A stretch of 33,548 bases of DNA from Puniceicoccales bacterium (GTDB lineage: Bacteria; Verrucomicrobiota; Verrucomicrobiia; Opitutales; UBA953). Position 1 is the stretch's first letter. The number at the start of each line of letters is the position of its first letter. Of the stretch, positions 1,571 to 33,548 are shown in pieces. The translations under genes were made by a program, and so were the position numbers. Location: contig JAITPT010000232.1 of assembly GCA_031289285.1 (NCBI GenBank), positions 1-33,548 of the forward strand. Direction: 5' to 3'. Under the pieces are notes generated by a model. The model did no database searches and was not told the DNA's origin. It worked only from the letters and a program-made list of their open reading frames with translations.

Positions 1571-1659
1571 GGAGAACGGGCAATGATTTGATGAAGGCGC
1601 GGAGGGTGCGGGAGAGGAGGGATTTGGCAAGCGGTTTTTTCGGGGGGTCGTAGGATTAT

Positions 1660-1729
1660 CCTAAAAACGGCAGTTAATGCGGGCGGTTTTGCACAATCTT
1701 TTGGCCGTTTGCAGCTTGCTCTTTCCGCT
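1660..1729. repeat. Dispersed repeat, copy 1 (left-arm copy)
   Basis: About 70 bp beginning cctaaaaacggcagttaatg align with 25141-25210, with only a handful of mismatches. The core gcgggcggttttgcacaatc is identical in both. This copy lacks the right inverted arm seen in copy 2. It sits between the first autotransporter and hsdM and supplies the end of the composite 107-aa ORF. Confidence 0.85.
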
Positions 1730-1732
1730 CCA

Positions 1733-1748
1733 CGCACCGCAAGGTGCG
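1733..1748 (-). terminator. Perfect 6-bp hairpin with four-base loop downstream of the autotransporter unit
   Basis: CGCACC GCAA GGTGCG is a perfect palindrome about 110 bp past the stop of the 2439-aa autotransporter (read on the minus strand). There is no T-run after it, so it is either a weak or factor-assisted terminator, an mRNA 3' stabiliser, or simply part of the repeat that surrounds it. Confidence 0.3.
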
Positions 1749-1756
1749 CGTCGGGA

Positions 1757-1838
1757 AAGCGCAGTCTTGTCAATGTAGGCATAGACTTCTTCGCGCAGTT
1801 CGCTAAATGTCCTGAAAACCAATAGGAAGTTTTTGCAT
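1757..1838 (-). pseudogene. Frameshifted 5' remnant of a PF09820-like AAA-ATPase gene
   Basis: On the minus strand, ATG at 1838 begins MQKLPIGFQ, then hits a stop after two more codons. A one-base shift continues as TFSELREEVYAYIDKTAL. Joined, this matches the typical N terminus of the predicted AAA-ATPase family PF09820 (K-LPIG-Q-F--LRE---YVDKT-L). The segment is only about 27 codons long and then runs into hairpin and repeat DNA, so the Walker motifs and the rest of the protein are gone. The 107-aa ORF in the track (1661-1984) is a composite of this remnant, autotransporter antiframe and repeat. The family match is from memory of its consensus. Confidence 0.6.
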
Positions 1839-1859
1839 GGCGCGGAGCCGGAGGCTGGA

Positions 1860-4800
1860 TCAGAAGCGCCAGCGGAAGCCGACATTGAAGTTGTGATAGA
1901 CGGCACCAGCGAAACTTGTTTCATAACGGTAGCCGAGGAAAACAGACTTTGAGGCGTCAAAAGTATAAGTGATTGACGGCGCAATTTGAATCAACTCGTC
2001 GGGCAAACTTTTTGCAGAGACTTTGGTTTTTCCAGTGCCAAGAACCTCAAAACGCGAAGAGATTTCACTGTCACCATCCAAGATTTCAGAGGTGAAAGAA
2101 ATGTCGAGATTTAGCCTGAGACTGGAATCCATGTTGCCCCAGAAACCACGCCCGTTGCCGTCAGCAAGCCACATAATTCCTGTTCCTACTTTTGTGCGGA
2201 AAGAATCGAAGTCGTAACCATAAACCTTGAGGCGACTCGCCGAACCCGTCTCCGTGAAAGCATCAAAACCATAGTGATTGTATTCAAAATTGATGTAGGG
2301 ATTCAGGTTGAGTTTTTGCCAAACCGGATGATTCATCAGCGCAAAAGCTGTTCCAAATGAGAGAAATCCGCCAGCAGTCCAACCTTCTGGGCTGGCACGA
2401 TTTGCACCCGATTGTGCGCCTTCAACAATTCTTTTAGCGGCGTCGAGCGAGGTGAGGGTTGTTGGCACAGTGTTTCTACGGGCGTCGTAAGAGAGCCAGC
2501 CTGCGTTGACACCAGCATCAACAAAGAACCATTCTGTAAAGAAGTAGCTAAAATAAGCACCACCACGTGCCTCGTCCATTTTGATTTTTCCACCGTTGTC
2601 GTGAAGCGTTGCACTTCCATTTGTATAGTCCGCGACAACACCAAAAAGCGCACGGGGAGAAAGCTGCACATCTGCGCCAACAATACCACCAAATGTTTGA
2701 TACTTAAAAGTGGAGTCTTTTGTGCCACTACCGAGGTCGGCATAACTTCCGAGACCCGCAAGATAAAATTGCCACGATCTATTCGGGAAGAGGTCTTGCG
2801 AGGCTGCGAACTGCGTGTTGTCGTAGCGGCGTTGTTCGATGCGTCCGTGTAGTTGGTCAATCGTGGCAGAGGCGGCGGCGGCGGGCATGGCGGCGAGAGA
2901 GCCGTAGCCGAGCGGAGAGAGATTGTTGACGATGGCAGTGAGGTCTTTGGCGACAGCGGTGTTTAAGTGGGCACCGAGTTCATAGACCGCTTTTTGCGCC
3001 TGCCATTCGGCGACATCCGCCAAGTATTTTTGGCGTGTGGCATAGTCTTGATTAACACCGGAGTTGTCGGGTTTTTCAAAGTCGCCGTATGGAATATCTG
3101 TCGCAATGAAATCAAGGTTTCTGATGAAAGAGCCGAGACCTTTGTGTGGCGTGTAACCGGGCACTTTTGCGAGTTCCCATTGGGTGACAAAAATTGTTGC
3201 GGCGGCGTTAGGATTTTGGGCGAGGATTTCTTCGCGAATTGCTTTTTCGTAAGCAGTTCCTTTTGCGAAGTCTCCTGCGACGAGAATGTAGTTAAGGTTG
3301 TTTGCTTTCGCGACATCGTCGGACACGAGATAGGTGTCTTCGCCAATCTGCACGTCGCTATTTAGCGAGTCGTTGGGATTAAGGCGTTCGAGGAAGACGT
3401 ATTTTTGCCCGCGTGCGGGGATTGCACTTCCGCCCGCGCCATCTTGACGCAAATTGATTTCGATACGACCGTTGAGCGAAGCGGAGCCGCCGTAAAGCAC
3501 CTTATCCCAGATGAAGTTTGCGCCTGCGTCTTTACCGATTTCGATTTTGAGCACGGAGTCGCGCTGTAAGTCTAAATTACCTGCGACAGTGACGGTTCCG
3601 ATATTGCTGGCGGAAGTTCCCGGAGCGAGTGCTGCGCCAGATTGGAAAATGAGATTTGCGGAGTTTCCGGCGGCGCGATTTCCGAGAGTGAAGCTGCCCT
3701 GAATTGCTCCTGCGGCGACGGTGTAAGTGCCGGAGTAATTGGGTTGATTTTCGAGAGTCAGCGAGGAAACATCTTCTTTGAGAACGGGGATGTCTCCGCG
3801 CAGAAGATTTTCGACGAGAGTGGGTTGCGCGGCTTGTGCGGCCTCGTATGGCACCGCGAGGACGATGCGCCCGTCGCCGTAGGATTGCAAAGACTCGACT
3901 CTTGCGAGGTGTGAGTAATCTGTGACGCGGAGTATGCCGGATTCGACGCCGAGAACGCGCACGATGAAGTCGCCACCGGAGAGGAATTGCAGGCGGTCTG
4001 TATTAAGCGTGGCGGTGCCTGTTTTGACAATGTTGCCGGAGTAGTATCTATTTTCTGCCGAGGTGGCGGCAGTGTTTTCTACGCCGTAGAGTGGCCCTCT
4101 ATAATAGGACTTCGCTTCTTCGGTGTCGCGCACATTTATATAGAGCGTGGAGACTTTCCCGTCTTTACTATCTTGGAAACGGATGGCCTTTGTATTCGCG
4201 ATGCCGACCTCAATGGAGCCGCCTTCGAGTGTGATAGTTCCCTCGAAACCTTCTGACGCGCCGGAGACGCCGAGATTTCCTGCGCCGTCGGAACCCTTAT
4301 AGCGCAAGATGCCGTCGCCCTTTATATAGATGTCTGCCTTGCCGATAAAAGAGCCGGAGAAACTGCTATCTTTGGACTGGGTAATATAGAAAGCGTCGCG
4401 CTGAACACCGAAGCTAAGAGCGGAGGTGCTATCGCTGGCGATACCGCCGGGAAGTTCGTTGATGGGGCCGACATCGAGAATGGCACCGTTCTGAAGATAA
4501 GTGACGCCCTTGTGGTCGGGGACGGTGTTAAAGACGAGCGAGTTGCGCACGTCATTGGCGAGGCCGAACTCGCGTTGTTGGCCGTCCACGATAAGGTCTC
4601 CGCCGCCGACGACGAGATTTGAGTAGAGGATTTCGGAGGCTTGGAGATTGACTTGGAGTTGTGCGCCAGCCCAGACATCTACTCGCGGCAAAAGATTGTC
4701 GTTGCGTGCGGTGTCCACGATGAGTCGTCCCTGTTCTACAATGACCTCATTTTTGAGTGCGTCGGTAGGCTGCGAGGCGTCCCATGCGAGCTTAACAGTT

Positions 4801-7800
4801 CCCGTGCCGTATTTGATAACTTTGCCTACGCCGTCAATACGTTCGGAGAAAACTTCTGGGTTTGCGTTCGGGTCGTCGGTGCGCAAATCGTTATCGGAGA
4901 AAATGCGTAGCGTTCCCTTTGACTGGACATCAATGGGGCGGTCGGAAAGGGCGTAAATAGTGGCGTCGAGCACACCTTCGGAGACGACAAACGCGCCGAC
5001 GAAATCGCCCTCATTGCTCCCGCGCAAGATGAGCGTTCCCGGGCCGGCCTTGTTGATTTTTCCGTTGCCTGAAATCGTTCCTTGGTAGGTCTTTACTTGT
5101 CCGGCGGCGGTCTTAAAAGTCAAATCTGCCTCGTCGGCGATAAGTTTTGAGCCGGGTTCGCCGGAGAGGTTGGAGAAAATCTGGCTATAACCGTTTAGGC
5201 GCACTGTGGCGTTTTGGGAGATTTCGAGAACATTGCTTTGTGCGAAAGCGTTTTTGACTTCGATAGAAAGCTCGCCTGCTTTGACATAAATAGAGCCGGT
5301 GAAGTCTTCCTGAGCGTGTGTGACAGCGAGCAGGCCCGGGCCAGCTTTTGAGATGTCGCCTGCGCCCACGAGATTTCCGCCGATGGCGGCGACTGTTTGC
5401 ACATCAATAGGAATATCGAACGTGAGCACTGCGCCAGCGGCGACGCTGTAGCTACTGATATTGGAGGGGACATTTGCGCGGGTTTTGCCGTCGGCGGTGA
5501 GTGCCTTTCCTGCGAAAATTAACTCTCCGGCGAGCACGGTTGTCGTGCCGGAATAATCGAGCCTGTGCGCGACATTGCCGCCCGTCTGGGAGGGGTCAAG
5601 TTCGCCGTAAAGAGTGAGTTTTCCTGCGCCGTCTTTGCCGACATTTCCGTAAGCGCCTTGGGAGTCGGAGTGCTCGCTGTAGCGGTCGGTGATGCTGCTG
5701 TAGAAAACGACATCGCCAGCGGTGTCGGGTATTTCAAAAACGACCGTTCCGGGGGAAGTTGCGAAGACATATTGACCGCCGCCGAAGTAGTCGAGCGGGT
5801 CGGTGTCGGAATAGACGATGTTGCCGAGGACAAAGTTGCCGAGGTTCTGGTGGACGGGCATGTAGAGCGCGCCCTCCTTGACGTAGGTTGTTCCTGTGAA
5901 CGAGTAAGAAGGCACGGCGTCGGCTGCGGCTTTTCCTGCTGGCAGCGAGGCGCTGCGTCCGTCCCAAATGGTTCTTTCACCTGTCACGGTGTTTATAAAG
6001 AATGCGTAAGGGATGCGCATCGGCCCTTGCCCAACCTTTGCGATGTTGCCGTCGTCGCCTGCTTTTGTGGGGTCTGGGTTGCCGCGAATGGGCGTGAGGA
6101 GGAGTGGGAACGGGTCGGCGGCGGTTCCGAGGTAGCTATCCTTTGTTGTGTCGGCGGGGTCTTGAGTTTCTTGGGGGACGATTGTTGAGCCGACGCGGAA
6201 CTCGATAAGAGCGGGGCGGCCTTCGGGCGGTGCGTCCACGAGTGCCCAGTTGGCGTCAAAAACTTTGCCGTGATAATTTGAGACATTGATTTCTCTTGCG
6301 ACGGGGAAGCTATCTGGGCGCATCCGCAGAACGCCCTCTGCGACGTTGACGGTTCCTGTGAAATCGGGGCTTGTGCCGGAGAAGGAAATGCGCTGGTCGC
6401 CGACTTTTTCGATGATACCGGAGCCGATGATTTCTCCGGCGTAGGAGAGTGCGTCGGCGTTGGAGAGACCGCGCCCAGAGTCGGCGTCAACGCCAGCCAT
6501 TTTGCCGAGTGTTTCTTTGAGGTAGTAGATTGAGGCGCCTTTTGAGAAGTCGCTCATCTCGGGATTTGCGGCGAGGCGCACCTCGTCGCCGGTGCGGGTG
6601 GTGTTGAAGAAGTAAGCGGCTTGGGCAGTCGGCACGCGGTTGGGTGCGCTGAGAAGCTCTTGGCTTAGCGCGAGAGTGTGTGAGGTGTCGGTGCCGAGGG
6701 TGAGCGTGGCGTCGCCCATTGTGATTTTAGAACCTTGCTCGCCGAAAAGTGCGCCGAACTTTTGTGGGAGGTAAGTGTGGGAGACGACGCCGTCTTCCGT
6801 GACGTTTTCGAGGATGTTCCCTTGTGTGTCGAGTGCGAGACTGAGGACGCTTGCGCCCTTGTAGAGAATGAGGCCGGAACTGTTTTTGGCGGTGCCGGTG
6901 AGCGTCTGTCCGGGGGTCTGGCCGTTGGGGTAATCGAGCGAGTTGCCGAGGACGAGGGTGGCGGTCGGGTTGGGCTGCTCGGCGGTTGGCGCGGCGAGCG
7001 GTTTGAGAATGGTCGCGCCGAAGTAAGTGTTCCACTCGGCGAGAGTCATCTGCGTCGAAGTGAGGACGATAACGCTGCCGACGCCGGTGATGCGCCCTGC
7101 GTAGATTGTCGGATTATACTGGCGCAGGGTGACGGTGCCGCGCCCCAAATCGAGGCGTGTGAGCGTGTCACCGGAGAAGTTGTTGAGGCGCTGGTCGGTG
7201 TCGGCGAAGGAGAGTGTGGTCTCGCGGTTGGCGGCGCCGCCGCCCATCAACCCTTGGCGCAAAGTGACGGAGCTGGCGTTGATGAGCGCGTCGTTGGGTG
7301 CTCTGGGGTCGCCGTCGCGAGCGGCGAGTAGAACGGTGACGCCGTTTGCGACGACGAAGGAGCCGTAGAAATTTGGCTGAGCGACGGACATCTGCATAAC
7401 GCCTGCCAAGTCGGGTGAACCGACTGCCAAGTTGCCGAACTGATTTGCCCCGCTGTCGTTGGTGGTGACGAGGAGCAGGCCGCCCGTGTCTCCCGTGAGC
7501 GTAGCGAGCAAGGTGCCGGAATTATTTTGCACGATGGTTAGTGAGCCAGCGTTGCCGATGTTGACGGTTCCCTTGCCGAGTGACTGCACGTTTGAGCCGA
7601 CGTGCCCCTCTTGGACGTCGAGAAGCCCCTTGAAGTTTTCGGGGTCGGAGTTGCCGGTGAAGAAGAGAGAGCCGGTTCCTATTTTTCGGAAGACGCTTCC
7701 CGTCTCTCCGATGATGTCTCCCGTGTAGTGTCCGTCGTGCCCCTGTTCCTGATTAACGGTGAGTGTGCTATCAACAATCATTCCCGTGCCGAGGTAATCG

Positions 7801-9179
7801 AGCGTGGAGAGATAGACGGCGGTGCCGGAGCCAGTGCCGATGGAGGCGAACAGCTCATCGGGCGAGCCTGCGAAGTTACAGTAGTTTTGGAAATTGCGGA
7901 TTGTCTGGTTGGTCTCGACGACGAGGACGGTTGCGTAATTTGTGTAGCTGACGCCGCTGGCGGCGGTCTGGTCAACGGAGCCGAGCACCATCGCTGCTGC
8001 GTCGCTTCTACCTGCGGGCGAGACCTCGGCGTAGGTGAGCGTCGGCGGCATATACACCTCGTAGAGGTCCACGCCGCCTGGGAGGGCGTTGCCTTGGTAA
8101 GTGCCCTGCGTGGCCTGCGGGCCTGCGAGTGTGACGGTCTGTGCGGTCTTGAGTGCGCCGCCGCCAGCGGAGGCGAGCTTGCTGACGCCGCCATTGAGGA
8201 TGACGACGCCCTCGAAGTCGCCGTCGTTTTTGACTTTGAAAGTTCCCATCCCCGTTTTGACGAACCAGCCGGAGCCGCGCAGGAAGCCGATGCCGCCCTC
8301 GTTGAAGGTGCCATTTGCGCCGTCGGGAGTGCCGTCGTAGGTTTCGTCTATGTGGACGACGATGCGGTAGGTGTCATCGAGGCCCGTCTGGAGTTCGGTG
8401 TTGTTGCCACGGGACTCGATGTTTTTGGCGATGTTGTAACGGAGGTTTGAATTGGGGACTTGGTAGGCGTCAACAATTGCGTCTTGGGGCAGATTGGCAG
8501 GGGTGTTTTGGAAAGAGATGGCGGCGGCGTCGGAGAGGACGTAACGCTGAACGCCGACGACGGAAGGCTCGTTTTCGTAATTAAGGCCGGAAGCCCAGAC
8601 CCACTGGTTGAGGTAGCCGGAGACGCGCAGCACGGCGTCGTCTTTGATTTCGACGGTGCCGGAGAAAGCTCCGTAGGTGTAGTTCTCGTTGGATTGAGTG
8701 CGCGTTGCCTCGCGGTTGAGCGTCGTGGTGTCGGTGATGATTGAGGGGAGCGGGTGGTCGGTGCTGTTAAAGACGGTGCTAAAAAAGTTACCAGCCAGCT
8801 CGCTTCGCCAGCCGCGATATTCGATGTAAGATTTGCCGACGATTGAGATGACGCCGAGTTTGTCTGGCTCGGTGTAGATGGTGCGGAATGGCAGGATGAC
8901 GTCGGGGCTGGCGGCGGAGAGCCAGCGCGAATAGGTGGTGACGGCCTCCTTGGTGTCTATGATGAGATGCACGGGGTTGCCGCCGTTGTTCGCGTCACTG
9001 GTGTTATATCTTATCGCGTAGTCGGAGTGGCCGTCGAACGCAGTGAGCGTGCTGTCCACATCGTAGATGACGTTGGTTGCGGCGCTGGCGGCACCCGCCG
9101 AGGCGAGAGTTGCGGCGGCGGCGAGTAGGGCTTTTGCCTTGGCGCGGCGCGTTAGGGGGAGAGAGGGACTTGTTTTCAT
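1860..9179 (-). CDS. Giant PATR-repeat autotransporter (2439 aa)
   Basis: A type V (autotransporter) outer-membrane protein: a signal peptide for Sec export, a very long repetitive passenger and a C-terminal beta-barrel. The track start at 9185 is a TTG; the ATG at 9179 (MKTSPSLPLTRRAKAKALLA) gives a better signal peptide, with a basic n-region, an Ala-rich core and a likely cut after ASA near residue 35. The passenger carries many repeats of the passenger-associated-transport (PATR) type, for example GSGIIEKVGDQRISFSGTSP, KAGPGTLILRGSNEGDFVGA and GVIKYGTGTVKLAW-like strings, which are known to form a beta-helix. Just before the barrel is NNLSPLGYGSLAAMPA and then RIEQRRYD. The barrel is about 295 residues and ends FRWRF, with the terminal Phe expected for Bam-dependent assembly. 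It follows the paralogue at 9248-18202 by 68 bp and is probably co-transcribed with it. Passenger function cannot be read. Base composition falls from about 65% GC at the 5' end to about 45% in the barrel. Confidence 0.93.
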   Translation of the reverse strand: MKTSPSLPLTRRAKAKALLAAAATLASAGAASAATNVIYDVDSTLTAFDGHSDYAIRYNTSDANNGGNPVHLIIDTKEAVTTYSRWLSAASPDVILPFRTIYTEPDKLGVISIVGKSYIEYRGWRSELAGNFFSTVFNSTDHPLPSIITDTTTLNREATRTQSNENYTYGAFSGTVEIKDDAVLRVSGYLNQWVWASGLNYENEPSVVGVQRYVLSDAAAISFQNTPANLPQDAIVDAYQVPNSNLRYNIAKNIESRGNNTELQTGLDDTYRIVVHIDETYDGTPDGANGTFNEGGIGFLRGSGWFVKTGMGTFKVKNDGDFEGVVILNGGVSKLASAGGGALKTAQTVTLAGPQATQGTYQGNALPGGVDLYEVYMPPTLTYAEVSPAGRSDAAAMVLGSVDQTAASGVSYTNYATVLVVETNQTIRNFQNYCNFAGSPDELFASIGTGSGTAVYLSTLDYLGTGMIVDSTLTVNQEQGHDGHYTGDIIGETGSVFRKIGTGSLFFTGNSDPENFKGLLDVQEGHVGSNVQSLGKGTVNIGNAGSLTIVQNNSGTLLATLTGDTGGLLLVTTNDSGANQFGNLAVGSPDLAGVMQMSVAQPNFYGSFVVANGVTVLLAARDGDPRAPNDALINASSVTLRQGLMGGGAANRETTLSFADTDQRLNNFSGDTLTRLDLGRGTVTLRQYNPTIYAGRITGVGSVIVLTSTQMTLAEWNTYFGATILKPLAAPTAEQPNPTATLVLGNSLDYPNGQTPGQTLTGTAKNSSGLILYKGASVLSLALDTQGNILENVTEDGVVSHTYLPQKFGALFGEQGSKITMGDATLTLGTDTSHTLALSQELLSAPNRVPTAQAAYFFNTTRTGDEVRLAANPEMSDFSKGASIYYLKETLGKMAGVDADSGRGLSNADALSYAGEIIGSGIIEKVGDQRISFSGTSPDFTGTVNVAEGVLRMRPDSFPVAREINVSNYHGKVFDANWALVDAPPEGRPALIEFRVGSTIVPQETQDPADTTKDSYLGTAADPFPLLLTPIRGNPDPTKAGDDGNIAKVGQGPMRIPYAFFINTVTGERTIWDGRSASLPAGKAAADAVPSYSFTGTTYVKEGALYMPVHQNLGNFVLGNIVYSDTDPLDYFGGGQYVFATSPGTVVFEIPDTAGDVVFYSSITDRYSEHSDSQGAYGNVGKDGAGKLTLYGELDPSQTGGNVAHRLDYSGTTTVLAGELIFAGKALTADGKTRANVPSNISSYSVAAGAVLTFDIPIDVQTVAAIGGNLVGAGDISKAGPGLLAVTHAQEDFTGSIYVKAGELSIEVKNAFAQSNVLEISQNATVRLNGYSQIFSNLSGEPGSKLIADEADLTFKTAAGQVKTYQGTISGNGKINKAGPGTLILRGSNEGDFVGAFVVSEGVLDATIYALSDRPIDVQSKGTLRIFSDNDLRTDDPNANPEVFSERIDGVGKVIKYGTGTVKLAWDASQPTDALKNEVIVEQGRLIVDTARNDNLLPRVDVWAGAQLQVNLQASEILYSNLVVGGGDLIVDGQQREFGLANDVRNSLVFNTVPDHKGVTYLQNGAILDVGPINELPGGIASDSTSALSFGVQRDAFYITQSKDSSFSGSFIGKADIYIKGDGILRYKGSDGAGNLGVSGASEGFEGTITLEGGSIEVGIANTKAIRFQDSKDGKVSTLYINVRDTEEAKSYYRGPLYGVENTAATSAENRYYSGNIVKTGTATLNTDRLQFLSGGDFIVRVLGVESGILRVTDYSHLARVESLQSYGDGRIVLAVPYEAAQAAQPTLVENLLRGDIPVLKEDVSSLTLENQPNYSGTYTVAAGAIQGSFTLGNRAAGNSANLIFQSGAALAPGTSASNIGTVTVAGNLDLQRDSVLKIEIGKDAGANFIWDKVLYGGSASLNGRIEINLRQDGAGGSAIPARGQKYVFLERLNPNDSLNSDVQIGEDTYLVSDDVAKANNLNYILVAGDFAKGTAYEKAIREEILAQNPNAAATIFVTQWELAKVPGYTPHKGLGSFIRNLDFIATDIPYGDFEKPDNSGVNQDYATRQKYLADVAEWQAQKAVYELGAHLNTAVAKDLTAIVNNLSPLGYGSLAAMPAAAASATIDQLHGRIEQRRYDNTQFAASQDLFPNRSWQFYLAGLGSYADLGSGTKDSTFKYQTFGGIVGADVQLSPRALFGVVADYTNGSATLHDNGGKIKMDEARGGAYFSYFFTEWFFVDAGVNAGWLSYDARRNTVPTTLTSLDAAKRIVEGAQSGANRASPEGWTAGGFLSFGTAFALMNHPVWQKLNLNPYINFEYNHYGFDAFTETGSASRLKVYGYDFDSFRTKVGTGIMWLADGNGRGFWGNMDSSLRLNLDISFTSEILDGDSEISSRFEVLGTGKTKVSAKSLPDELIQIAPSITYTFDASKSVFLGYRYETSFAGAVYHNFNVGFRWRF

Positions 9180-9247
9180 TGGCAAGCGGTGTTCGGCGGT
9201 GATTGTTTTTTTGTGGGAGTGAAAAGTGTTTCGGGAGGCGCGGCGAT

Positions 9248-24277: not shown

Positions 24278-25102
24278 TTATACCTCTCCAAGGCGGATAC
24301 GCACAAGCAGGTCGTTTAAGGCGGTGCGAGTGGTGTCGGAAGGAGCTTCAGGGAGAAGGCTGGTGTCGTGAGCAAGTTGAAGCTCAGCACGCAGACGTTG
24401 ATACTCGTTCTCGTGAAAAATGATGTCTGCGTCAACGAGAGTGGATTGCTCAGCTCCCGCTAATTTTCGAGCAATTAAATCGGGAAGCCACGATAGACGA
24501 AAAGTCTCGTTGAGCGTGACAAGATTTGCCTCAATAATACCCGTGCGTAACAAGAAAATCCCCGTTAACAACACACGATAAACATAAAGCAACGGTTTGA
24601 CACGACGCGGAGTTTCTTTGAGAAACAGATTCCACTGATTTTCCGCAAACCCAAAATAGTGATGCGAGTGATGTCGCGTAATACAACCCACAACTATGCG
24701 TTTTAATTCGGTGTGCGCCGGAGTCGTCGCAACGACGAGCGGCGAATAAACTTGTTCAAGAACGTAACCGTTTTTCTTGAGAAGGAGTGCAAAAAACTTG
24801 CGCACATCGTGGCTAACGATGTCCATTTCCAACCCTTCAATAATGCGCGAATCCTCTACGGTTTCGTCGGCGATGCCCATTCCCAATACGTTGCGCAAGT
24901 GAAGGATGTGTGCGCCGCGCAAATCGAAGTCGGAGTCTGGCGACGGAAATCCGTAGAGGTGTGCGCCACTGATTGTTGCAAAGAGAAGCGGGTAGGGCTG
25001 GCCAGCGACGATGCGCTGGAGACGCGGGTCAATATGCGGCATAACTGTAGAAACAGGCGGCACGGTTTCGACCGTAGTAGAGATGGCGGAAGTAGTTTTC
25101 AT
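24278..25102 (-). CDS. RlaP/YcgL-type nucleotidyltransferase (pol-beta superfamily), 274 aa
   Basis: A predicted nucleotidyltransferase of the DNA polymerase beta superfamily, YcgL/COG3541 type, which the literature on RNA repair calls RlaP (RNA-ligase-associated pol-beta). Seen: the active-site strand ISGAHLYGFPSPDSDFDLRG (about residues 45-64), with the GA(S)-x9-DxD arrangement whose two Asp bind metal. LEMDIVSHDVRKFFALLLKKNG and YVLEQVYSPLVV, both typical of the family, follow, then a helical C-terminal half. The ATG at 25102 is the natural start; a Thr/Ser/Val-rich N-terminal tail of about 25 residues precedes the fold. It follows the second family member by 52 bp on the same strand, probably as an operon. 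The expected partners, RtcB ligase or a release factor, are not in this window. The RNA substrate is unknown; a role in RNA end repair is inference. Confidence 0.85.
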   Translation of the reverse strand: MKTTSAISTTVETVPPVSTVMPHIDPRLQRIVAGQPYPLLFATISGAHLYGFPSPDSDFDLRGAHILHLRNVLGMGIADETVEDSRIIEGLEMDIVSHDVRKFFALLLKKNGYVLEQVYSPLVVATTPAHTELKRIVVGCITRHHSHHYFGFAENQWNLFLKETPRRVKPLLYVYRVLLTGIFLLRTGIIEANLVTLNETFRLSWLPDLIARKLAGAEQSTLVDADIIFHENEYQRLRAELQLAHDTSLLPEAPSDTTRTALNDLLVRIRLGEV

Positions 25103-25140
25103 TGCGTTTGTTTTTGCGGGTTGGAGTCACAGAAGTTGAA

Positions 25141-25234
25141 CCTTAAAACGGCAGTTAATGCGGGCGGTTTTGCACAATCTTTTGAACGTCTGCGGCTTGC
25201 GCTTCCCGCTGAACTGCCGTTTTTAGGTTTAAGG
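25141..25234. repeat. Dispersed repeat, copy 2 (with both inverted arms), overlapping the end of a gene
   Basis: ccttaaaacggcagtt (25141-25156) and aactgccgtttttaggttta (within 25212-25234) are inverted arms. The interior also pairs gcggg with cccgc. The first 70 bp match 1660-1729 with few mismatches. The element supplies the last 20-odd codons and the stop codon of the 337-aa nucleotidyltransferase gene. Confidence 0.85.
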
Positions 25235-26168
25235 ATTTTTTCCAGCGGGCTTCGATTAGAAACTGATTTGCGGCGGCGTAATCGGGACGTTCGGGCAAGG
25301 AAGTGCTGGCGAGTGCTTGTTCAAAATCGAGATGTAGTTGGCGCCGCCAAGCGTCCACCTCTGTCCAAGAAATATCGCCGTGTTTTATTGCGAGTAATTT
25401 TTCTCGCAAGGTTGGCGACGCCACCGCTACCGGCATGTGTCCGTCGCGCAAAGTTGCGGCACCGGTAAGCAACAGACGAACTAAGTGCATTGCGTGTTTC
25501 CAGCGGATTTCGCCTTGATTGCGTCGGTCTTGTTCCAATTTTTTGAACTGGCTTAGCGCATAACCGTTGAAGGTTTGAAAAATCATTTTTGACAGAAACT
25601 TTTCGCGAATAGCGAGTAACTCTTTTGCTATCGGCGCACACTTTTCGACGAGTGGCGAATAGAGACATTCGAGAATGTTGGGGTTCGCTTTGAGTGCCAT
25701 AATTACGAACTTCTGCAATTCCCAATAACAGGCTTGTCCGGCATTGTCCTCGAATTGTTCGGGTGCGCCGTAAAGCGACCAGTGCATCTCGGCGGGCGCG
25801 AGATAAATGCCGCGCAAATCGGTATCGGAAGTTTCCGTGTCGAGACCATAAGCGCGAGAGCCAGTTACGCAGCGATAAATAATGTGTTCATCAAGGCAAA
25901 ACTCCGAAACGGTTGAGGCGTCCGCCGCGCCGAGTCGTTCTTTGAACTCCTTCAAAACTTCCAACGCCTCGGCGGGAAAGACTGTCTCAAAACCATCTGG
26001 GAAGCGCACATGGTAAAGCGACTCGTGACCAGCGGGCGTGCGGGTGATGACGCCCACCGCCCCACTTGGGTGAACGCGCAAGCCATTCGCGCCAAGAATG
26101 GGGGCATTGACGACTACTTGTGTGCCTGCGTGAAGGCGGGCGGCGGCGGGTGCGGGCATGTTGGACAT
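25155..26168 (-). CDS. Nucleotidyltransferase of the YcgL/RlaP type with N-terminal SH3-like domain, 337 aa
   Basis: A second pol-beta-superfamily nucleotidyltransferase, clearly distinct from its neighbour. Residues about 10-72 look like a small KOW/SH3-like beta domain (GTQVVVNAPILGANGLRVHP, then GVITRTPAGHESLYHVRFPD). The catalytic strand is VTGSRAYGLDTETSDTDLRG (about 100-119), with the full GS-x9-DxD signature. NPNILECLYSPLVEKCAPIA and a helical region with RWKHAMHLVRLLLTGAATLR follow. ATG 26168 is the first start; there is no Shine-Dalgarno. The final residues, NLKTAVQREAQAADVQKIVQ and on to the stop, are encoded by the dispersed repeat at 25141-25234, so the native C terminus has probably been replaced or extended. 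Upstream of the 274-aa gene by 52 bp, likely one transcript. Substrate unknown; RNA is inferred from family context. Confidence 0.85.
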   Translation of the reverse strand: MSNMPAPAAARLHAGTQVVVNAPILGANGLRVHPSGAVGVITRTPAGHESLYHVRFPDGFETVFPAEALEVLKEFKERLGAADASTVSEFCLDEHIIYRCVTGSRAYGLDTETSDTDLRGIYLAPAEMHWSLYGAPEQFEDNAGQACYWELQKFVIMALKANPNILECLYSPLVEKCAPIAKELLAIREKFLSKMIFQTFNGYALSQFKKLEQDRRNQGEIRWKHAMHLVRLLLTGAATLRDGHMPVAVASPTLREKLLAIKHGDISWTEVDAWRRQLHLDFEQALASTSLPERPDYAAANQFLIEARWKKSLNLKTAVQREAQAADVQKIVQNRPH

Positions 26169-26318: not shown

Positions 26319-29300
26319 CTATTTGGTGGTTTTGAAGTCGCCTTTGCCGTCGAGGGTGCCGTCGGAGATGGAGCCTTTGTTGGAAATGGCGTCGTAACTG
26401 CCACGCAAGACGTAAGAGCCAGACAAACCACTCGTGAAGACAAACTCAAAAACACCCGTTTCAACACGGACAAAAGAGTCATCCCCATAAACAACACTGT
26501 AGACAAGCAAGGCAGTGTTGGGACCCGTGCGGATGTAGTTGTAGTCGCCATTGGGCAACTTCAAACCCGCTAAGAGCGTGAGGACACTGTCGTCAGTTTG
26601 AACAGCAGCCGCCACAGCAGAGTCGGCAAGAACACCGTTCAATTTGATTTTTGTGCCAGCAGGCAAACTCACAGGAGCGTTGCCCGAAACAGTAGTGCTC
26701 GTGCTCGCAGCAGCAGCCGCGCCCGTCGGCGCAAGAGAGAACGTGCCCGTCTTGGCCGATGCGCCCGTAGCAGCCGTAGCACCCGCACCGCCCTGCCCTG
26801 CCGACACGGCCTGCGCGACGGCCTGAGGCGCGGCGGCGATTTGGCCGACATCCGGCGTGACGGCGGTGACTCGCACCGTTACCTCGGAAGACTTGGCGGG
26901 ACGGCCAGCAGGATTGTCAACGATGACATAGTAAATGCCGCCCGTCGCCTGAGTCGCACTGGTGAAGGTCAAGGTCGGTGTTTTCCCGTCGGGCAACTTT
27001 GTGCCGTTGCGATACCACTGGTAAGAGAGCGGGCCGGTGCCAGAAGCGGCGACGGTCAACACGCCAGCTTCGCCTTCCCTCAAATCGAGAGAGACGGGGT
27101 GGCGGTCAATCGCGGGCGCGTGAATGACAGAGACGGCGACCTCGTTACTTGTCGCGCTGCCGACAGCATTCGTGATGCGCACGTAAAACTTGGTGTTGAC
27201 GGAAACGGTCGTCTCATAGACGCGGCTGTTGTTGTCGGTGCCGGGGATTTTGACGCCGTCTTTATACCACTCGAAGGTGAATGGTGCGTCGCCCGTGGCG
27301 GTCGCGGTCAAGGTCACGCGGTTGCTGGCGGGGTCGCCTTGGACGACGACGACATTTCCCGCGCTCGTGGCGAGCGTGACAGCGGGGCCGGAGGCAGAGC
27401 GCAAAGTGGCGATTTCCTGCGTGACAGAACCCGAACCGTTGGAGACGACGACGGTGTATTTGCCAGTTTCCGCCGCGAAGTAAGTGGGGCCAGTTGCGCC
27501 GGCAATCGTCACGCCGTCGCGTTTCCACTCGAAGGAGAGCATGGAGCCGGAGGTCTCGACGCTAAGTTGTGCGCCTCTGCCCGGGTCGGCGATTTCGCCT
27601 TTTGGCAGGGAGAGGATTTTGGGCGGCGCGATGGCGATGAGTGCTGCCGGGCCGAGCGTGAAGCGGTTGGAGCCGCTGACGACGCTGACGGTGTAGTGGC
27701 CGAGCGAGGCGGGCGTGATAGTCGGCAGCGTGAGTGCCGCGCCAGTCGCGCCGTCAATCGCCACGCCGTTCAAACTCCATTGGTAGGAAGGCGCGGGGTC
27801 GCCCGTGACATCCACAGACAACGTGAACGGCCTGCCCAGCCCGCAACCAATCGTCCGTGGCAAATCTTTGTTGACGACGGGTTTTTCGGAAAATCTCACC
27901 TCGAAGGCGACGGGAGTGCTCACCACGGAGCCGACGGTGTTCTCGACGCTGACGCGATACTCGCCGTTGTTGGCGGCGGAGACGCTGTCGAAAATGAGGT
28001 CGGCGCGTGTGCCGTCGCGGACGTTCGACCAAGAGTCGCCCGAACGTTTTTGCCATTGGTAAGTGAGTGCGGCGGTGTCGGTGGCGGCGACGCCGACGGA
28101 GAGCACCAGCTTGCTGCCTGCCCAGACAACCTCTGGCGCGGCGGGTTGGCGGATGATTTCGGGGACGCTGTTCGCCGCGTGGTGGACGTTCAGCGACACC
28201 GTCGAAGACTGCGTTGTCCCCGCGACATTGCTCACGAGCACATCGTAGGAACCGCTCTGTGTCTCGCGCACACCGGAGAGGTGCAGGGTCGCGCCGGTCG
28301 CGCCGGTGAGCGGCACACCGTCGCGCCGCCATTGGTAAGAGAGGGTGGAAGGCTCGCCAGTTATCACCGAGGCCTCGACGGAGAACTCGGCGTCGCCGCC
28401 CTCAAACGGGCTGGCGGAACGCGGCTGGCGGGTGATGACGGGGAGGCCGTAGAGCTTGAGAACGGCCTCGCTGACGATTGTCCCTGCGCTGTTGCTAATC
28501 GTAACTGTGTAGGTGCCCGCGTGGTCGGCGGTGACGTTCTCAATCGTGTGCGAGGAGAAAGTCGCGCCCGGAAGGTTTGCGCCGTTGAACTGCCATTGGA
28601 AAGTCGGCGCGGGTTCGCCACTGGCGGAGACTGCAAAAGTGACCGCGCCGCCAGCGACGACGGTCTGGCTCTGCGGGTCGCGAAGTATCGCGGGCGGCGT
28701 CTGGTTTTTGGCGGCTTTGATGGTGAAGACGGCGGAAACCTCGTCGCTGGGCAACGCGCCAAGCTGGTTGCGGTAGGCGCGGGCGCGGATGGTGACCACG
28801 ATGTCGCTGCTTGTCTCGTTGACGAGCGGGAGCGCGGTGTTGCCGTAAGTGGGCGAATACTGGGTGACCGCCGAGCCGTCTTGCGTGAAATGGACGGTGG
28901 CTTCGCTCTCGATGTTTTTGAACTCGACCCGCACGGAGCCGGTATAGACGCCGCCGTTGGGCGAGATGACGGGCGCGGGGACGGGCGTGCCGCTGCCGGA
29001 GACGCCGCCCGAAGGCTGCCAGCGGTCGGTGCGTGTGCCGTCGCCGAGTTGGCCGTAGGTGTTCGCGCCGAGGCTTTCCACGGAGTCGGCGGAGGTGACG
29101 TAGAGTGTGTGGGCGGCACCGGCGGCGATGGCTTTGACGCCAGCGGCGACGACGCGCACGGGTGCGTTGCCGCCTTCGACGGCGAGCGTGTTGGGAAGAA
29201 TGGCGGGGTCGTTGCCGAGTTGGCCGCGCTCGTTTGCGCCCAAGCCGACGAGGGAGCCGTCGCTCAGGAGCAAGAGGGCGTGTCTCTCGCCAGCGGCGAT

Positions 29301-32105
29301 GGCGGTGACGGCGAGGCCGCCGGGCGTCCTGACTCGTAGCGGAGTGGCGAGGCGTCGCGTGTCTTGGGCGGTGCCGACCTGCCCGCTGTCGTTGGAGCCG
29401 GTGGCATAGACGCTGCCGGCCTCGGTCAAAATCAGGCTGAAGTTACGCCCTGCTGCGACGGCTTTCACCTTGCCGAGGGCGGCGGAAACTTGTGCGCCGC
29501 CTGCGCCAAAGTCGGTGACGGTGGCAATCTTGATTGGGGAGTTGCGGTCGGCGGTGTCGCCGAGGCCGAGCTGCCCGTCGTCGTTGCGTCCGGTCACCCA
29601 GACTGTCCCATCTCCGCGGACGAACAAGGAGTGGAATGTTCCTGCGGCGGCGGTGAGGAAGTATTCGCCGACGAGCGTGGGCTGGAGCACGTAGTCAACG
29701 ATGGTGGAGGTGGTGCCAGCGGGCACGGGTCTGCCGTCGCCGCTGAAACCGAGGCCGAGTTGGCCGTAGTTGTTGCGCCCGACTGCCCAGAACTTGCCAT
29801 CGAAGGTGGTGTAGAAGGAGTGGTAGCCGCCCGCGAAAGCGAGGAGCACCTCGGAGGCGATTTCTTCTGGCGCGGGGCGGTCGGTGGTGTCTTTTGCGCC
29901 GAGTTGGCCGTAGTTGTTGCGGCCAGCGGCCCAGAGTTTGCTATCGCGTGCCACGTAGAGTGAGTGGTCGCCGGAGGCACTCACGGCGGAGATGCCGGAG
30001 CCGATGATGACGGGGGTGTTGACGGTGGTGGTGGTGCCGTTGCCGAGTTGGCCGTAGCGGTTCCAGCCGGAGGCGCGAAGCTCGCTGGCTTCGAGGCTGC
30101 CGGTGAGGAAGAGCGTGTGGTTGCTGCCGCCGGAGATGCGTGTGCCGTATTCGGCGCGGATGCTGTCGGGGGTGCGGACGTTGAAGTCGGCGGAGGTGAC
30201 TTCGCTGGGCAGGAAGTCTATGTCAAACCCTCGCACCTTGACCGTCGCGGGGTGCGCGAGGCGAGGCGGGTTTTGCGGGTCGTAGAGGGCGGAGGTTTCG
30301 GTGGGCGTGGAGCCGTCGAGCGTGTAGCGCAGGAAGGGGCGGGCGGAGCCAGCGGCGAGGCCGGGCGTGTTAGAAGAGAAGATGAGCGTGACGCTGTTGA
30401 CGTAGAGGCCGCCGCCCGGAGTGATGACGGGGCGCGTCACGGGCACGGGGTTGATTTTCACGAGCACGATGCGTTCTTCGCTTGTCTGGTTGTCGGCGCG
30501 CCAGAGGCGGACTTTCACGTTGGCTGTGCGCGTGAGCACAAACGAGCCGGTGTAGATGGGCGAGTCTTCGGTGACTTCGGAGTTATCCACGGTGTAGCGG
30601 ATGATGTCGCCCGGGCGGGCTGCGCCGGAGTCGGGGTGGAGCGTGAGGGAGATGGTCACGGGGCCGTTGTAGGTCTGGCCGTCGCCGCCTGTTTGCGCGG
30701 TGCCTTCGATGTTGACGACTGGGCGCTCGGCGACGGGCAACACGAGGATTGTGTATTCGGCGGAGGTTTGCGGGGCGCGGTTATACTTGGGCAAGAAGGG
30801 GAGCGCTTTGATGACGGTGAGGCCGGTGCGAACAATCTCGAGTGGGCGGTCGTCGCGGTAGATGGAAGAAGTCTCGGTGACATCGGAGCCGTCGAGCGTG
30901 TAGCGGATGACGGCACCGTCGGTCGCGCAGCCGAGCAAGACTTTCACGGAGCCTTTGTATTCGCCGGAGTCGGGCGCGAAGGTGACGGGGGCGAGCGTCC
31001 TGCCGTAGTCAATGTTGATGTTGGCGGAGGCGATAAGGCTGGGCAGGTAGTCTGCTCTGAAAGCGCGGGCGCGGAGGACGGTCGGGTATTTGATGAGGAT
31101 TGGCTCGGTGGGGCGGAACACCAGCGAGGTCTCGTCGGGGTCGGTGCCGTCGGTGGTGTAGAAGATTGTGGCATCGGGGTCGGAGCAGCTGATTGTGACT
31201 ACCTGCTCATCGGGGAAGACGCCGCTAACGGGGTCGAAAACGGGCGTGGGTATGCCGGGCTTGTAGGGGCGGTAGGCGGCGACAAGCGGAATGGTCGCGT
31301 TGAAGACTTGTGCGTTGTTGGCGGGGTAATTGATTTCGGGGGTGCTGGGGTCTGCATCGTTAGTGCCGGTGGGGACGCCGTTGCTCTTCACGTCGGGGTT
31401 GGAGTAGTAGAGAATTGACGTCCCGTTGTAAGACATGATGGTGCCCTGCCCATTTGGTAGGTGGTAGCCGAAGGGAGTGCCGAAGGCACCCGCTGCAAAG
31501 GAGGCTTGCTGACGACCGTCCATAGTCGCAAGCATCGTGCCCCAATCGTGGCAACCGCCCAAGTTGTGCCCAAGCTCGTGGGTAAAAGAGATTCCGTATG
31601 CGACGCTGTAAGCGACACCAGAGTTTCCTGCCGACTCCACGAGAAGCCACGCCAATCCGGCAGTGCCGTTGTCGTAGTCCGGCTTTGAGCGAATGAAGTT
31701 GACGACGTCGGCACCGATTTCCTCGCGCCATTGATGCACTTCGTCCATCTCGCCGTTTGGGTCGCCGTCTGACTTCGAGGCACCGAGCATGTTGAGGTCG
31801 CTTTCAAAATTCACCTCTGTGTAGTTAACCTTTCGGACGGCGGCGCGGCGAATGGCACCAGTGATTAGGCTGTTTTCAAATGCGGTGTTGGTGCGGGCGA
31901 CGATGAGGTTGGCCTGCGCCTTCACGCCGTCGGCCCCGCCGTAGCGGTTTTCGGTTTCCTGCCCATAGACGAAGAGGACATCTATGGTTTGCGCGTCGGT
32001 GGCCTTGGCGTGGGCGTCGGCGGGCTGCGCGAGGAAGGCGGCAGCAGTCGCGACAACAGCAGCGGCGGCGGAGAATGTATTTTTTAGGAAACGAGGGAGT
32101 TTCAT
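26319..32105 (-). CDS. Secreted modular metzincin metalloprotease with RCC1 propeller and Ig-like domains (1928 aa)
   Basis: An exported zinc protease. The signal peptide spans about 1-31 (FSAAAAVVATAAAFLAQPADA). The catalytic domain starts almost at once (about 40-280) and carries HELGHNLGGCHD (176-187), the reprolysin-type zinc motif, and a Met-turn TIMSYNGTS with Met near 224. Then come about four chitobiase-C-terminal/Fn3-associated domains (288-645, marked by YTTDGTDPDETS and RYTLDGS-TETS), seven RCC1 units (650-1030, each with an N-YGQLGxG-like turn), another chitobiase-type domain (about 1045-1130) and about seven Ig-like domains (1137-1750, with GTYTVTISNSAG-type endings). An Ala/Gly/Thr linker and a 100-residue C-terminal domain finish it. 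There is no propeptide between signal peptide and catalytic domain, and no sorting signal at the end. It starts 106 bp after the gene for the propeptide-like membrane protein. The modules probably bind polysaccharide or protein surfaces; the substrate is unknown. Confidence 0.92.
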   Translation of the reverse strand: MKLPRFLKNTFSAAAAVVATAAAFLAQPADAHAKATDAQTIDVLFVYGQETENRYGGADGVKAQANLIVARTNTAFENSLITGAIRRAAVRKVNYTEVNFESDLNMLGASKSDGDPNGEMDEVHQWREEIGADVVNFIRSKPDYDNGTAGLAWLLVESAGNSGVAYSVAYGISFTHELGHNLGGCHDWGTMLATMDGRQQASFAAGAFGTPFGYHLPNGQGTIMSYNGTSILYYSNPDVKSNGVPTGTNDADPSTPEINYPANNAQVFNATIPLVAAYRPYKPGIPTPVFDPVSGVFPDEQVVTISCSDPDATIFYTTDGTDPDETSLVFRPTEPILIKYPTVLRARAFRADYLPSLIASANINIDYGRTLAPVTFAPDSGEYKGSVKVLLGCATDGAVIRYTLDGSDVTETSSIYRDDRPLEIVRTGLTVIKALPFLPKYNRAPQTSAEYTILVLPVAERPVVNIEGTAQTGGDGQTYNGPVTISLTLHPDSGAARPGDIIRYTVDNSEVTEDSPIYTGSFVLTRTANVKVRLWRADNQTSEERIVLVKINPVPVTRPVITPGGGLYVNSVTLIFSSNTPGLAAGSARPFLRYTLDGSTPTETSALYDPQNPPRLAHPATVKVRGFDIDFLPSEVTSADFNVRTPDSIRAEYGTRISGGSNHTLFLTGSLEASELRASGWNRYGQLGNGTTTTVNTPVIIGSGISAVSASGDHSLYVARDSKLWAAGRNNYGQLGAKDTTDRPAPEEIASEVLLAFAGGYHSFYTTFDGKFWAVGRNNYGQLGLGFSGDGRPVPAGTTSTIVDYVLQPTLVGEYFLTAAAGTFHSLFVRGDGTVWVTGRNDDGQLGLGDTADRNSPIKIATVTDFGAGGAQVSAALGKVKAVAAGRNFSLILTEAGSVYATGSNDSGQVGTAQDTRRLATPLRVRTPGGLAVTAIAAGERHALLLLSDGSLVGLGANERGQLGNDPAILPNTLAVEGGNAPVRVVAAGVKAIAAGAAHTLYVTSADSVESLGANTYGQLGDGTRTDRWQPSGGVSGSGTPVPAPVISPNGGVYTGSVRVEFKNIESEATVHFTQDGSAVTQYSPTYGNTALPLVNETSSDIVVTIRARAYRNQLGALPSDEVSAVFTIKAAKNQTPPAILRDPQSQTVVAGGAVTFAVSASGEPAPTFQWQFNGANLPGATFSSHTIENVTADHAGTYTVTISNSAGTIVSEAVLKLYGLPVITRQPRSASPFEGGDAEFSVEASVITGEPSTLSYQWRRDGVPLTGATGATLHLSGVRETQSGSYDVLVSNVAGTTQSSTVSLNVHHAANSVPEIIRQPAAPEVVWAGSKLVLSVGVAATDTAALTYQWQKRSGDSWSNVRDGTRADLIFDSVSAANNGEYRVSVENTVGSVVSTPVAFEVRFSEKPVVNKDLPRTIGCGLGRPFTLSVDVTGDPAPSYQWSLNGVAIDGATGAALTLPTITPASLGHYTVSVVSGSNRFTLGPAALIAIAPPKILSLPKGEIADPGRGAQLSVETSGSMLSFEWKRDGVTIAGATGPTYFAAETGKYTVVVSNGSGSVTQEIATLRSASGPAVTLATSAGNVVVVQGDPASNRVTLTATATGDAPFTFEWYKDGVKIPGTDNNSRVYETTVSVNTKFYVRITNAVGSATSNEVAVSVIHAPAIDRHPVSLDLREGEAGVLTVAASGTGPLSYQWYRNGTKLPDGKTPTLTFTSATQATGGIYYVIVDNPAGRPAKSSEVTVRVTAVTPDVGQIAAAPQAVAQAVSAGQGGAGATAATGASAKTGTFSLAPTGAAAAASTSTTVSGNAPVSLPAGTKIKLNGVLADSAVAAAVQTDDSVLTLLAGLKLPNGDYNYIRTGPNTALLVYSVVYGDDSFVRVETGVFEFVFTSGLSGSYVLRGSYDAISNKGSISDGTLDGKGDFKTTK

Positions 32106-32211
32106 AGCGGCGAAGTTTTTGGGAAAGGTTGTTGAGAAAGGTTTGTTGGGAAGTGGTTGCTGGGAAATGGGAGGAGGTGGCGGTGGGTGCGGTGGCGACG
32201 GCGACGGCGCG

Positions 32212-33066
32212 TTATTTGCCGGAGGCGGCGGTGGCGGGCGACGCGGGTTTTACGGGTGTGAGGTTGACGGTGACTTTGCGCGGGGAGCACTCGCCGCATT
32301 TGAGGCGGGAGGGGTCAATCTGCGCGAGGAAGGTGCGTGTGATGTCGGCACCCGCAGGCGTGGCGGCGTTGCGGATTTCGTAGTAACGCGAGGCGGCGGG
32401 GACAGCGGCGGGGACGTGGATTTCGCCGTTGAGCGTGTTGTTGACGTAGCTGAGAAAGACGTGGTGCGTAGTCTCCACGCCCTTCACTTTTGCCGAAAAC
32501 ACGCCTTCGTTTTTCGGGGCAAACGGGATGAGCTTGAAGTCTGTCAGGGTGACGGTGTTGCCGTCGAAGAGGGGGAACTCGATTTCGGAGGGCGGCGGTG
32601 CGCCGTCGCGGATGCTGTTGCCGATGCGCAGGAACGACTCGCTGAGGTCGCGGCGTTCTTCGCGGAGGATTTCGATGTGCGAGGCGAGCGAGGGGTCGTT
32701 GGCAGGCGTGGGGACGACGTTGCTGGCGAGCACGCGGATGCGCGGCGCAAGCGGGGTAGGTGGCGTGGTGGGGAGCGAGGCGGTGGTGGTGGTGGCGCGG
32801 GTGGAAGCGGTGGGAGAAGTGGCGGCGGGGGAAGAAGGTGTGGAGGCAGGCGCGGGAGTGAGGGGAGCGGTGGTGGTGGCGCGGGTGGTGGAAGGGGAAG
32901 GAGTGGTGGAGGGGGAGGAGGGGGAGGGGGAGGAGTTTTTCCAGTAGAGGAATGCGCCGACAACGAGCACCAGTGCGGCGAGCGCGAGCGTGAACACGGA
33001 CGACAGCGGGAGTGCTTTGCGCTCTGGCCTCGGCTTGGTTCGCGGGGATGCGAGACGGTGTTTCAT
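32212..33066 (-). CDS. Membrane-anchored metalloprotease-propeptide-like protein (284 aa)
   Basis: Start ATG 33066 (MKHRLASPRTKPRPERK) is preferred to the track start at 33087, which adds MPPSPPS. A basic N-terminal tail is followed by one transmembrane helix (about 21-42, SSVFTLALAALVLVVGAFLY), an 80-residue Ser/Pro/Thr linker and a C-terminal globular domain (about 105-270). That domain resembles the N-terminal propeptides of bacterial reprolysin-like proteases: EFPLFDGNTVTLTDFKLIPF, then VFSAKVKGVETTHHVFLSYV, NGEIHVPA, YYEIRNA and FLAQIDPSRLKCGEC. The only two Cys of the protein are in KCGEC (257 and 260), where such propeptides carry the zinc-blocking cysteine. It lies 106 bp upstream of the 1928-aa metzincin, which lacks a propeptide, so a trans-acting chaperone or inhibitor role is inferred. 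The propeptide likeness is by pattern only; an unrelated periplasmic domain remains possible. Confidence 0.75.
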   Translation of the reverse strand: MKHRLASPRTKPRPERKALPLSSVFTLALAALVLVVGAFLYWKNSSPSPSSPSTTPSPSTTRATTTAPLTPAPASTPSSPAATSPTASTRATTTTASLPTTPPTPLAPRIRVLASNVVPTPANDPSLASHIEILREERRDLSESFLRIGNSIRDGAPPPSEIEFPLFDGNTVTLTDFKLIPFAPKNEGVFSAKVKGVETTHHVFLSYVNNTLNGEIHVPAAVPAASRYYEIRNAATPAGADITRTFLAQIDPSRLKCGECSPRKVTVNLTPVKPASPATAASGK

Positions 33067-33548
33067 AGAAGGCGGAGATGGAGGCAAACGAGCGGGGCAT
33101 TGTCAACAGGTTTTTGGCGGGAAGGCGGGGGGGGGTAGCTGGCGGGGGGGCTGGGGCGGAGGGGGGAGGGTAGCTGGCGGGTGGGGCTGGGGCGGAGGGT
33201 AGCTGGCGGGTGGCCGGCACGGACACACGGACACACGGACTAACACGGACTGACACGGACCTACACGGACAAACACGGACACCGCCACCCGCCACTGCAC
33301 TGATGGTGACGAGTGCCCACCCCACACACCGCCAACAGCTGCGCCCCCCCCACCACCGCGCCAACAGCACCCCCCCCGCCAACAGCTGCGCCACACACAC
33401 CGCCAACAGCTGCGCGCCCCCCCCCCCCACCGCGCCAACAGCCACGCCACACCCCACACACCGCCAACAGCCGCCCCCGCCCCCCCCCACACACACCGCG
33501 CCCTACCCGCCCGAGTGCTGTCCGTGTTTTTGTCCGTGTCAGTCCGTG
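33067..33548. other. Low-complexity, repeat-filled region upstream of the protease unit
   Basis: No gene is seen in these 480 bp. A 9-G run lies at 33127-33135, about 60 bp before the propeptide-like gene. Roughly three copies of a 29-bp unit (gtagctggcgggtggggctg and on) follow to about 33210. Period-7 to 10 repeats of cacggac occupy 33218-33280, then C-rich repeats of gccaacagctgcgcc. gtccgtg units in the opposite orientation occupy 33520-33548. The minus-strand ORFs here encode only Gly/Trp/Arg-rich low-complexity peptides. Confidence 0.8.

Follow-up and report, generated by a model that had tools for sequence, protein, structure and literature searches.

The small membrane-tethered protein P0001, encoded just upstream of the 1928-aa metzincin P0002 in the window (i.e., the whole analysed stretch of 33,548 nucleotides from a Puniceicoccales bacterium), carries a domain that, judged by its homologues, is the prodomain of bacterial reprolysin-type metzincins. 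We consider it likely that this prodomain was split off a reprolysin/ADAM-type metzincin by gene fission and that it now acts in trans, as an anchored chaperone-inhibitor of the inner membrane.

The protease and its upstream partner

On the minus strand, the P0001 gene is followed by 106 nt and then by the P0002 gene, the two being in different frames. The features are as follows.

32212..33066, minus strand: P0001 gene (284 aa, membrane-tethered prodomain protein), with its ATG at 33066 and its stop at 32212
32941..33003, minus strand: predicted signal-anchor/TM stretch of P0001, around residues 22-42 (hydropathy 2.42 over 19 residues)
32743..32931, minus strand: P/S/T/A-rich flexible linker of P0001, residues 46-108, read from the sequence
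32263..32733, minus strand: detached prodomain of P0001, residues 112-268 (alignments A1/A2, fused homologues, AlphaFold2)
32287..32298, minus strand: CGEC of P0001, candidate cysteine switch (alignment of 12; the only cysteines of the protein)
32106..32211, minus strand: 106-nt spacer between the two genes, in which a terminator-like site was sought and none found
26319..32105, minus strand: P0002 gene, 1928-aa metzincin (signal peptide, Reprolysin_4, five CHB_HEX_C_1, RCC1 repeats, Ig domains)
31416..31991, minus strand: catalytic domain of P0002, residues 39-230, directly behind the signal peptide (PF13583, PF13688)
31548..31580, minus strand: zinc-binding motif HELGHNLGGCH of P0002, residues 176-186 (zinc-motif columns invariant in protease alignment A3)

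P0002 begins with a signal peptide that looks classical by eye (MKLPRFLKNTFSAAAAVVATAAAFLAQPADAHA) and scores 47.4 bits with PF13583 (cut-off 22) and 45.6 bits with PF13688 (cut-off 27). With HExxHxxGxxH, a Met-turn and scores above the curated cut-offs, it is a reprolysin-type (M12B-like) metzincin. Since the Reprolysin_4 match spans residues 43-230, with HELGHNLGGCHD from residue 176 and IMSY as the Met-turn at 223, there is no space for a prodomain in P0002 itself.

In P0001, a basic N-terminus precedes the hydrophobic stretch (mean Kyte-Doolittle around 2.4 over 19 residues), and the predicted topology is N-in with the C-terminus in the periplasm. By hydropathy, a TM-like stretch lies ahead of the domain in all split homologues. 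Cys257 (32296-32298) and Cys260 (32287-32289) lie within DPSRLKCGEC. The sequence-only reading had described both proteins accurately, i.e., a protease going from signal peptide straight into its catalytic domain, and a partner made of a TM helix, a linker and a domain with the only two cysteines.

Elsewhere in the window, imperfect tandem repeats rich in G or C overlap one another at 33124-33490, immediately upstream of the P0001 gene at the end of the contig; two tandem adjacent RlaP-family (PF10127) nucleotidyltransferase-like genes lie at 24281-26168; and 1863-9185 encodes a protein of 2441 aa that has a PATR repeat as well as an autotransporter beta-domain.

The same domain stands before the catalytic domain in fused proteases

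A Pfam search of P0001 gave no family at E<=1, and NCBIfam and Pfam together left its small domain without any family. The identity of the domain comes from its homologues. We built the profile A2 solely from 12 stand-alone domains, with no fused protein included, and ran it against all ORFs of 30 metzincin loci from the order-level search. There it found the same domain within protease ORFs, right ahead of the catalytic domain. In a control run, this first-round profile matched 19 different metzincin ORFs (E<=1e-3), every time immediately N-terminal to the catalytic domain, with no match elsewhere and none in 9131 reversed ORFs. When 80 metzincin loci from a public-genome scan were added in later rounds and the profile was iterated, 68 different fused prodomains were found, at a median gap of 30 residues from the catalytic domain. 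By MAG labels, the fused forms are spread over about ten phyla, including Planctomycetota, Chloroflexota, Acidobacteriota, Nitrospirota, Pseudomonadota, Myxococcota and Verrucomicrobiota. Because a profile made from stand-alone domains finds the same domain before the catalytic domain in fused proteases, we identify P0001 as a detached prodomain. In a Nitrospira and an Acidobacteria MAG, extra stand-alone prodomain-like ORFs with signal-like N-termini lie beside fused metzincins (L128:4828-5355 and L092:2198-2719); they are possibly dedicated inhibitors.

The kinship to animal prodomains is weaker than that to the fused bacterial ones. The best PDB sequence matches of the domain profile are all to the ADAM17 prodomain, at marginal E values (0.085-0.5), and PF01562 (M12B/ADAM prodomain) is absent from the Pfam matches of 71 members. 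For L075, a relative that is fused in nature, the AlphaFold2 model (pLDDT 86.9, pTM 0.87) aligns over 466-482 columns with ADAM17 zymogens (E 7e-9 to 2e-8), and its catalytic part matches CpaA of the CpaA-CpaB complex (E 2e-12). The isolated P0001 domain is modelled with one helix and eight strands (pLDDT 81), and this model has no fold match among PDB structures (best E 0.28). We discounted the weak Aha1/SRPBCC matches of the domain model (E 0.3, TM-score 0.19) as noise, despite the SRPBCC-like character ascribed to CpaB. Like the P0001 domain, the ADAM17 prodomain is beta-rich with a cysteine near its C-terminal end, and like the bacterial fused homologues it directly precedes a reprolysin-type catalytic domain (PMC11248996). 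The difference is that an ADAM prodomain is part of the same chain and is cut by furin, whereas P0001 is a separate anchored protein.

The pairing is conserved

When 57 related genomes were searched with the small domain, it turned up twice in the window's genome and also in six further genomes of that genus; a profile search of the phylum (289 genomes) added four loci in three more distant genomes. P0001 thus has 11 homologues: seven at other loci of the genus, of which one is in the window's genome, and four at more distant loci. A metzincin gene directly adjoins 10 of these 11, a count that excludes the window and uses only loci found through the small protein, adjacency taken from the collection scan with the protease alignment being biased. 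The ten neighbours have HE/QxGH and the same layout of a signal peptide followed by the catalytic domain. This recurrence argues that the arrangement of P0001 and P0002 is not due to chance. In these pairs, the distance between the two genes is -4 nt at the least and about 150 nt at the most; in L033 and L034, stop and start codons overlap by 4 nt.

The only homologue without an adjacent metzincin is the window genome's second copy, a stand-alone prodomain gene (L018:4464-5435, contig C243). The same genome holds a metzincin without an adjacent prodomain gene (L023, contig C271) and another at a contig end (L022, contig C324); the L018 prodomain and these two metzincins are possibly partners in trans. 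In L038 (G373), the order is reversed, with the prodomain gene downstream of the protease gene as in cpaA-cpaB. At L021:3270-8954 (G001, same genus), the metzincin has HQIGHNLGCGH in place of HELGH, with Gln for the catalytic Glu, while the paired prodomain gene has a normal CGTC; it is either a pseudo-protease that has retained its partner or the product of a sequence error.

The sequence-only reading had taken P0001 for a propeptide turned into an independent membrane protein, to be checked by profiles against protease propeptides and by a survey for the same gene pair, fused versions included. Both checks came out in its favour, through the 19 and then 68 fused metzincins and the adjacency in 10 of 11 homologues, and together with the sequence-predicted anchor they bear this part of the proposal out.

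Evolutionary history

A tree built from 110 catalytic domains contains one clade of 18 Verrucomicrobiota rows (SH-aLRT 95) that has no fused member and consists of 13 split proteases and five others. For these five, no intact neighbouring prodomain gene was found; among them, one is cut by a contig end, one lies near one, and L071 has only the start of a prodomain gene upstream. L023 and L070 are clade proteases beside which no prodomain gene was detected. The G139 pair may also belong to this clade, where its placement has a support of 19. That the split proteases form a Verrucomicrobiota clade suggests an old gene fission. Fused forms are widespread, and those of Verrucomicrobiota (L045, L054, L059) already have an N-terminal hydrophobic stretch and a linker ahead of the prodomain and catalytic domain, so that the simplest account is an ancestral fused protein whose gene underwent fission.

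A split pair also occurs in a Bryobacterales MAG (Acidobacteria, L136), with a cysteine-less prodomain gene (533-1291) and, after it, a metzincin gene (910-4956) encoding LRR-like repeats before the catalytic domain. This split may have a separate origin, but one origin for all split pairs, L136 included, is not rejected by the AU test (p 0.10).

The cysteines as a candidate switch

In the core alignment of 12 sequences, Cys257 is invariant and Cys260 nearly so. Further away, conservation is looser. The more distant split pairs L040 and L136 have no cysteine at the switch position, and 40 of the 68 fused prodomains have one near the position of Cys257, the remaining 28 or so having none and often an acidic residue instead. 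In ADAM17, Cys184 of the prodomain ligates the zinc and the prodomain is still bound after cleavage, and mutants without the switch cysteine remain inhibitory (PMC11248996), which makes the variation among prodomains compatible with a detached prodomain. From these patterns, a cysteine switch in P0001 appears likely but not essential, and Cys257 is a plausible candidate for a zinc ligand of P0002.

Proposed mechanism and alternatives

From the homology, the anchor seen in the sequence and the conserved pairing, we infer binding, help in folding, latency, zinc ligation, an export route and recycling. The signal-anchor would keep P0001 in the inner membrane, and a flexible tether would hold its prodomain in the periplasm. 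P0002 emerging from Sec would be bound at its catalytic domain by the tethered prodomain, which would aid its folding and keep it latent. The C-terminal segment of P0001 would plug the active site, with Cys257 probably at the zinc or close to it. Once folded, the protease would exit, most likely via the type II secretion system (T2SS), leaving behind an anchored and reusable P0001. The release of P0002 from its partner at the outer membrane, already proposed from the sequence, is plausible. A type II route is probable from the gene content: the secretion genes seen in the genome are two GspD-like secretins only, both under the GspD cut-off (294 vs 351 bits). Against this overall reading we counted these sub-threshold secretins, the missing cysteines of L040 and L136, the lack of a PDB match for the isolated-domain model and of any Pfam match, L018 without a metzincin, and L023 and L070 without a prodomain gene.

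P0001 might instead be solely an immunity-like inhibitor that shields the periplasm from leaked protease and is dispensable for folding and export. Co-expressed BamI does relieve the toxicity of Mep72 in E. coli (PMC4334185), and isolated ADAM-type prodomains can antagonise, as does recombinant ADAM17 prodomain supplied separately to ADAM17 (PMC2802003). However, P0001 has kept an anchor and a tether that resemble Lif and CpaB, both needed for secretion (PMC4713064), the whole prodomain was split off rather than a short inhibitory peptide, and L021 retains the partner beside an HQIGH protease without its catalytic Glu. We therefore regard a pure inhibitor as rather unlikely. Lower still do we place a role of the CGxC as a thiol-disulfide or metal-handing factor, for redox control or zinc loading, in place of a cysteine switch. 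CxxC is indeed more frequent in stand-alone ORFs (12 of 18) than in fused prodomains (15 of 68), and Cys185 of P0002 falls inside the zinc motif, but the second cysteine is gone in L035 and both are missing in L040 and L136, several fused forms have a single cysteine at the same position, as a switch predicts, and the predicted fold of one helix and eight strands is not thioredoxin-like.

The fused forms in relatives could also mean that P0001 and P0002 are a single gene that a recent frameshift, or an error in sequencing or assembly, has cut in two. This is refuted by the recurrence of the split in about ten other independent assemblies from several families of the order, with start/stop overlaps in two, and P0002 moreover has its own signal peptide behind a spacer of 106 nt; we give this reading practically no weight. 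An anchored prodomain that acts as chaperone and inhibitor remains our preferred reading. An extension of it is that P0001 works in trans as a steric foldase that can be used again, a single anchored copy serving many protease molecules and also the C271 and C324 metzincins, and that CpaB and BamI maybe share this origin; we hold this tentatively, as doubtful.

Comparison with known systems

The sequence-only reading knew of no described bacterial example, which was wrong, as CpaA/CpaB (PMC4713064, PMC7542363) and Mep72/BamI (PMC4334185) are metzincins with separate partners. CpaB is a TM-anchored chaperone encoded by the adjacent gene, needed by the metzincin CpaA for T2SS secretion (PMC4713064, PMC7542363), and its C-terminal tail is described as sitting zymogen-like in the catalytic site of CpaA (PDB 6O38; PMC7542363). 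CpaA/CpaB of Acinetobacter resembles P0002/P0001 in joining a metzincin to a neighbouring gene whose product has both an N-terminal TM and a periplasmic domain. It differs in that cpaB lies downstream of cpaA whereas the P0001 gene lies upstream, and in that CpaB has been likened to SRPBCC proteins rather than regarded as a prodomain. The CpaB chain gave no sequence match to the P0001 domain with profiles A1 and A6, and CpaB is absent from the 50 best Foldseek matches of the domain model.

Mep72 of Pseudomonas aeruginosa is likewise a secreted metzincin with a co-transcribed adjacent partner, BamI, which binds it directly and relieves its toxicity (PMC4334185); BamI has a predicted TM, as P0001 does, and a spacing of 77 bp (Table 1, PMC4713064). 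P0002 scores 47.7 bits with the Mep72 model across the catalytic domain. P0001 as a BamI (NF052435) was considered and dropped, because the match (11.7 bits, cut-off 180) covers just the TM and linker; the BamI model has no match in the window's own genome, and no homology is shown between the folded parts. Taken together, profile, family-model and (for CpaB) structure searches detected no prodomain-type homology in CpaB or BamI.

The lipase-specific foldases (Lif/LipB) are also anchored in the inner membrane, periplasmic, and encoded beside their substrate. Their substrate is a different one and so is their fold, and they are not known to derive from a prodomain. They are steric chaperones of a T2SS substrate (PMC4713064). 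In Pseudomonas savastanoi, RhpC is a separate small inhibitor and chaperone of RhpP, a metalloprotease without a propeptide, and was called by its authors a functional mimic of propeptides (PMC6490944); there, unlike in P0002/P0001, the protease belongs to M4 and the partner is an 11-kDa cytoplasmic protein without a TM.

A class of membrane-bound T2SS chaperones has been proposed for several further type II substrates, and P0001 has two of its defining traits, a gene adjoining that of the effector and an N-terminal TM helix (PMC4713064). A further trait of the class, being required for the type II secretion of the effector, is one that P0001 may share. A literature search of incomplete coverage found no paper on a pair of this type in Verrucomicrobiota. 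The arrangement as such was already known from CpaA/CpaB and Mep72/BamI; what is new is a partner that can be shown to be a prodomain, the fused forms being available for comparison.

The chaperones that assist type II secreted enzymes from a membrane anchor have been described as a class by function, of obscure origin. Here, an origin can be read from the sequence: what is anchored next to the enzyme is a prodomain of its own kind, which occurs fused in many phyla and split in a clade of Verrucomicrobiota. This raises directly the question of whether a single-use intramolecular chaperone turned reusable after fission, and a second one, whether a prodomain of ADAM type acting in trans is as good at restraining the zinc. 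If P0001 is a reusable foldase, gene fission would have made a catalyst out of a single-use intramolecular chaperone.
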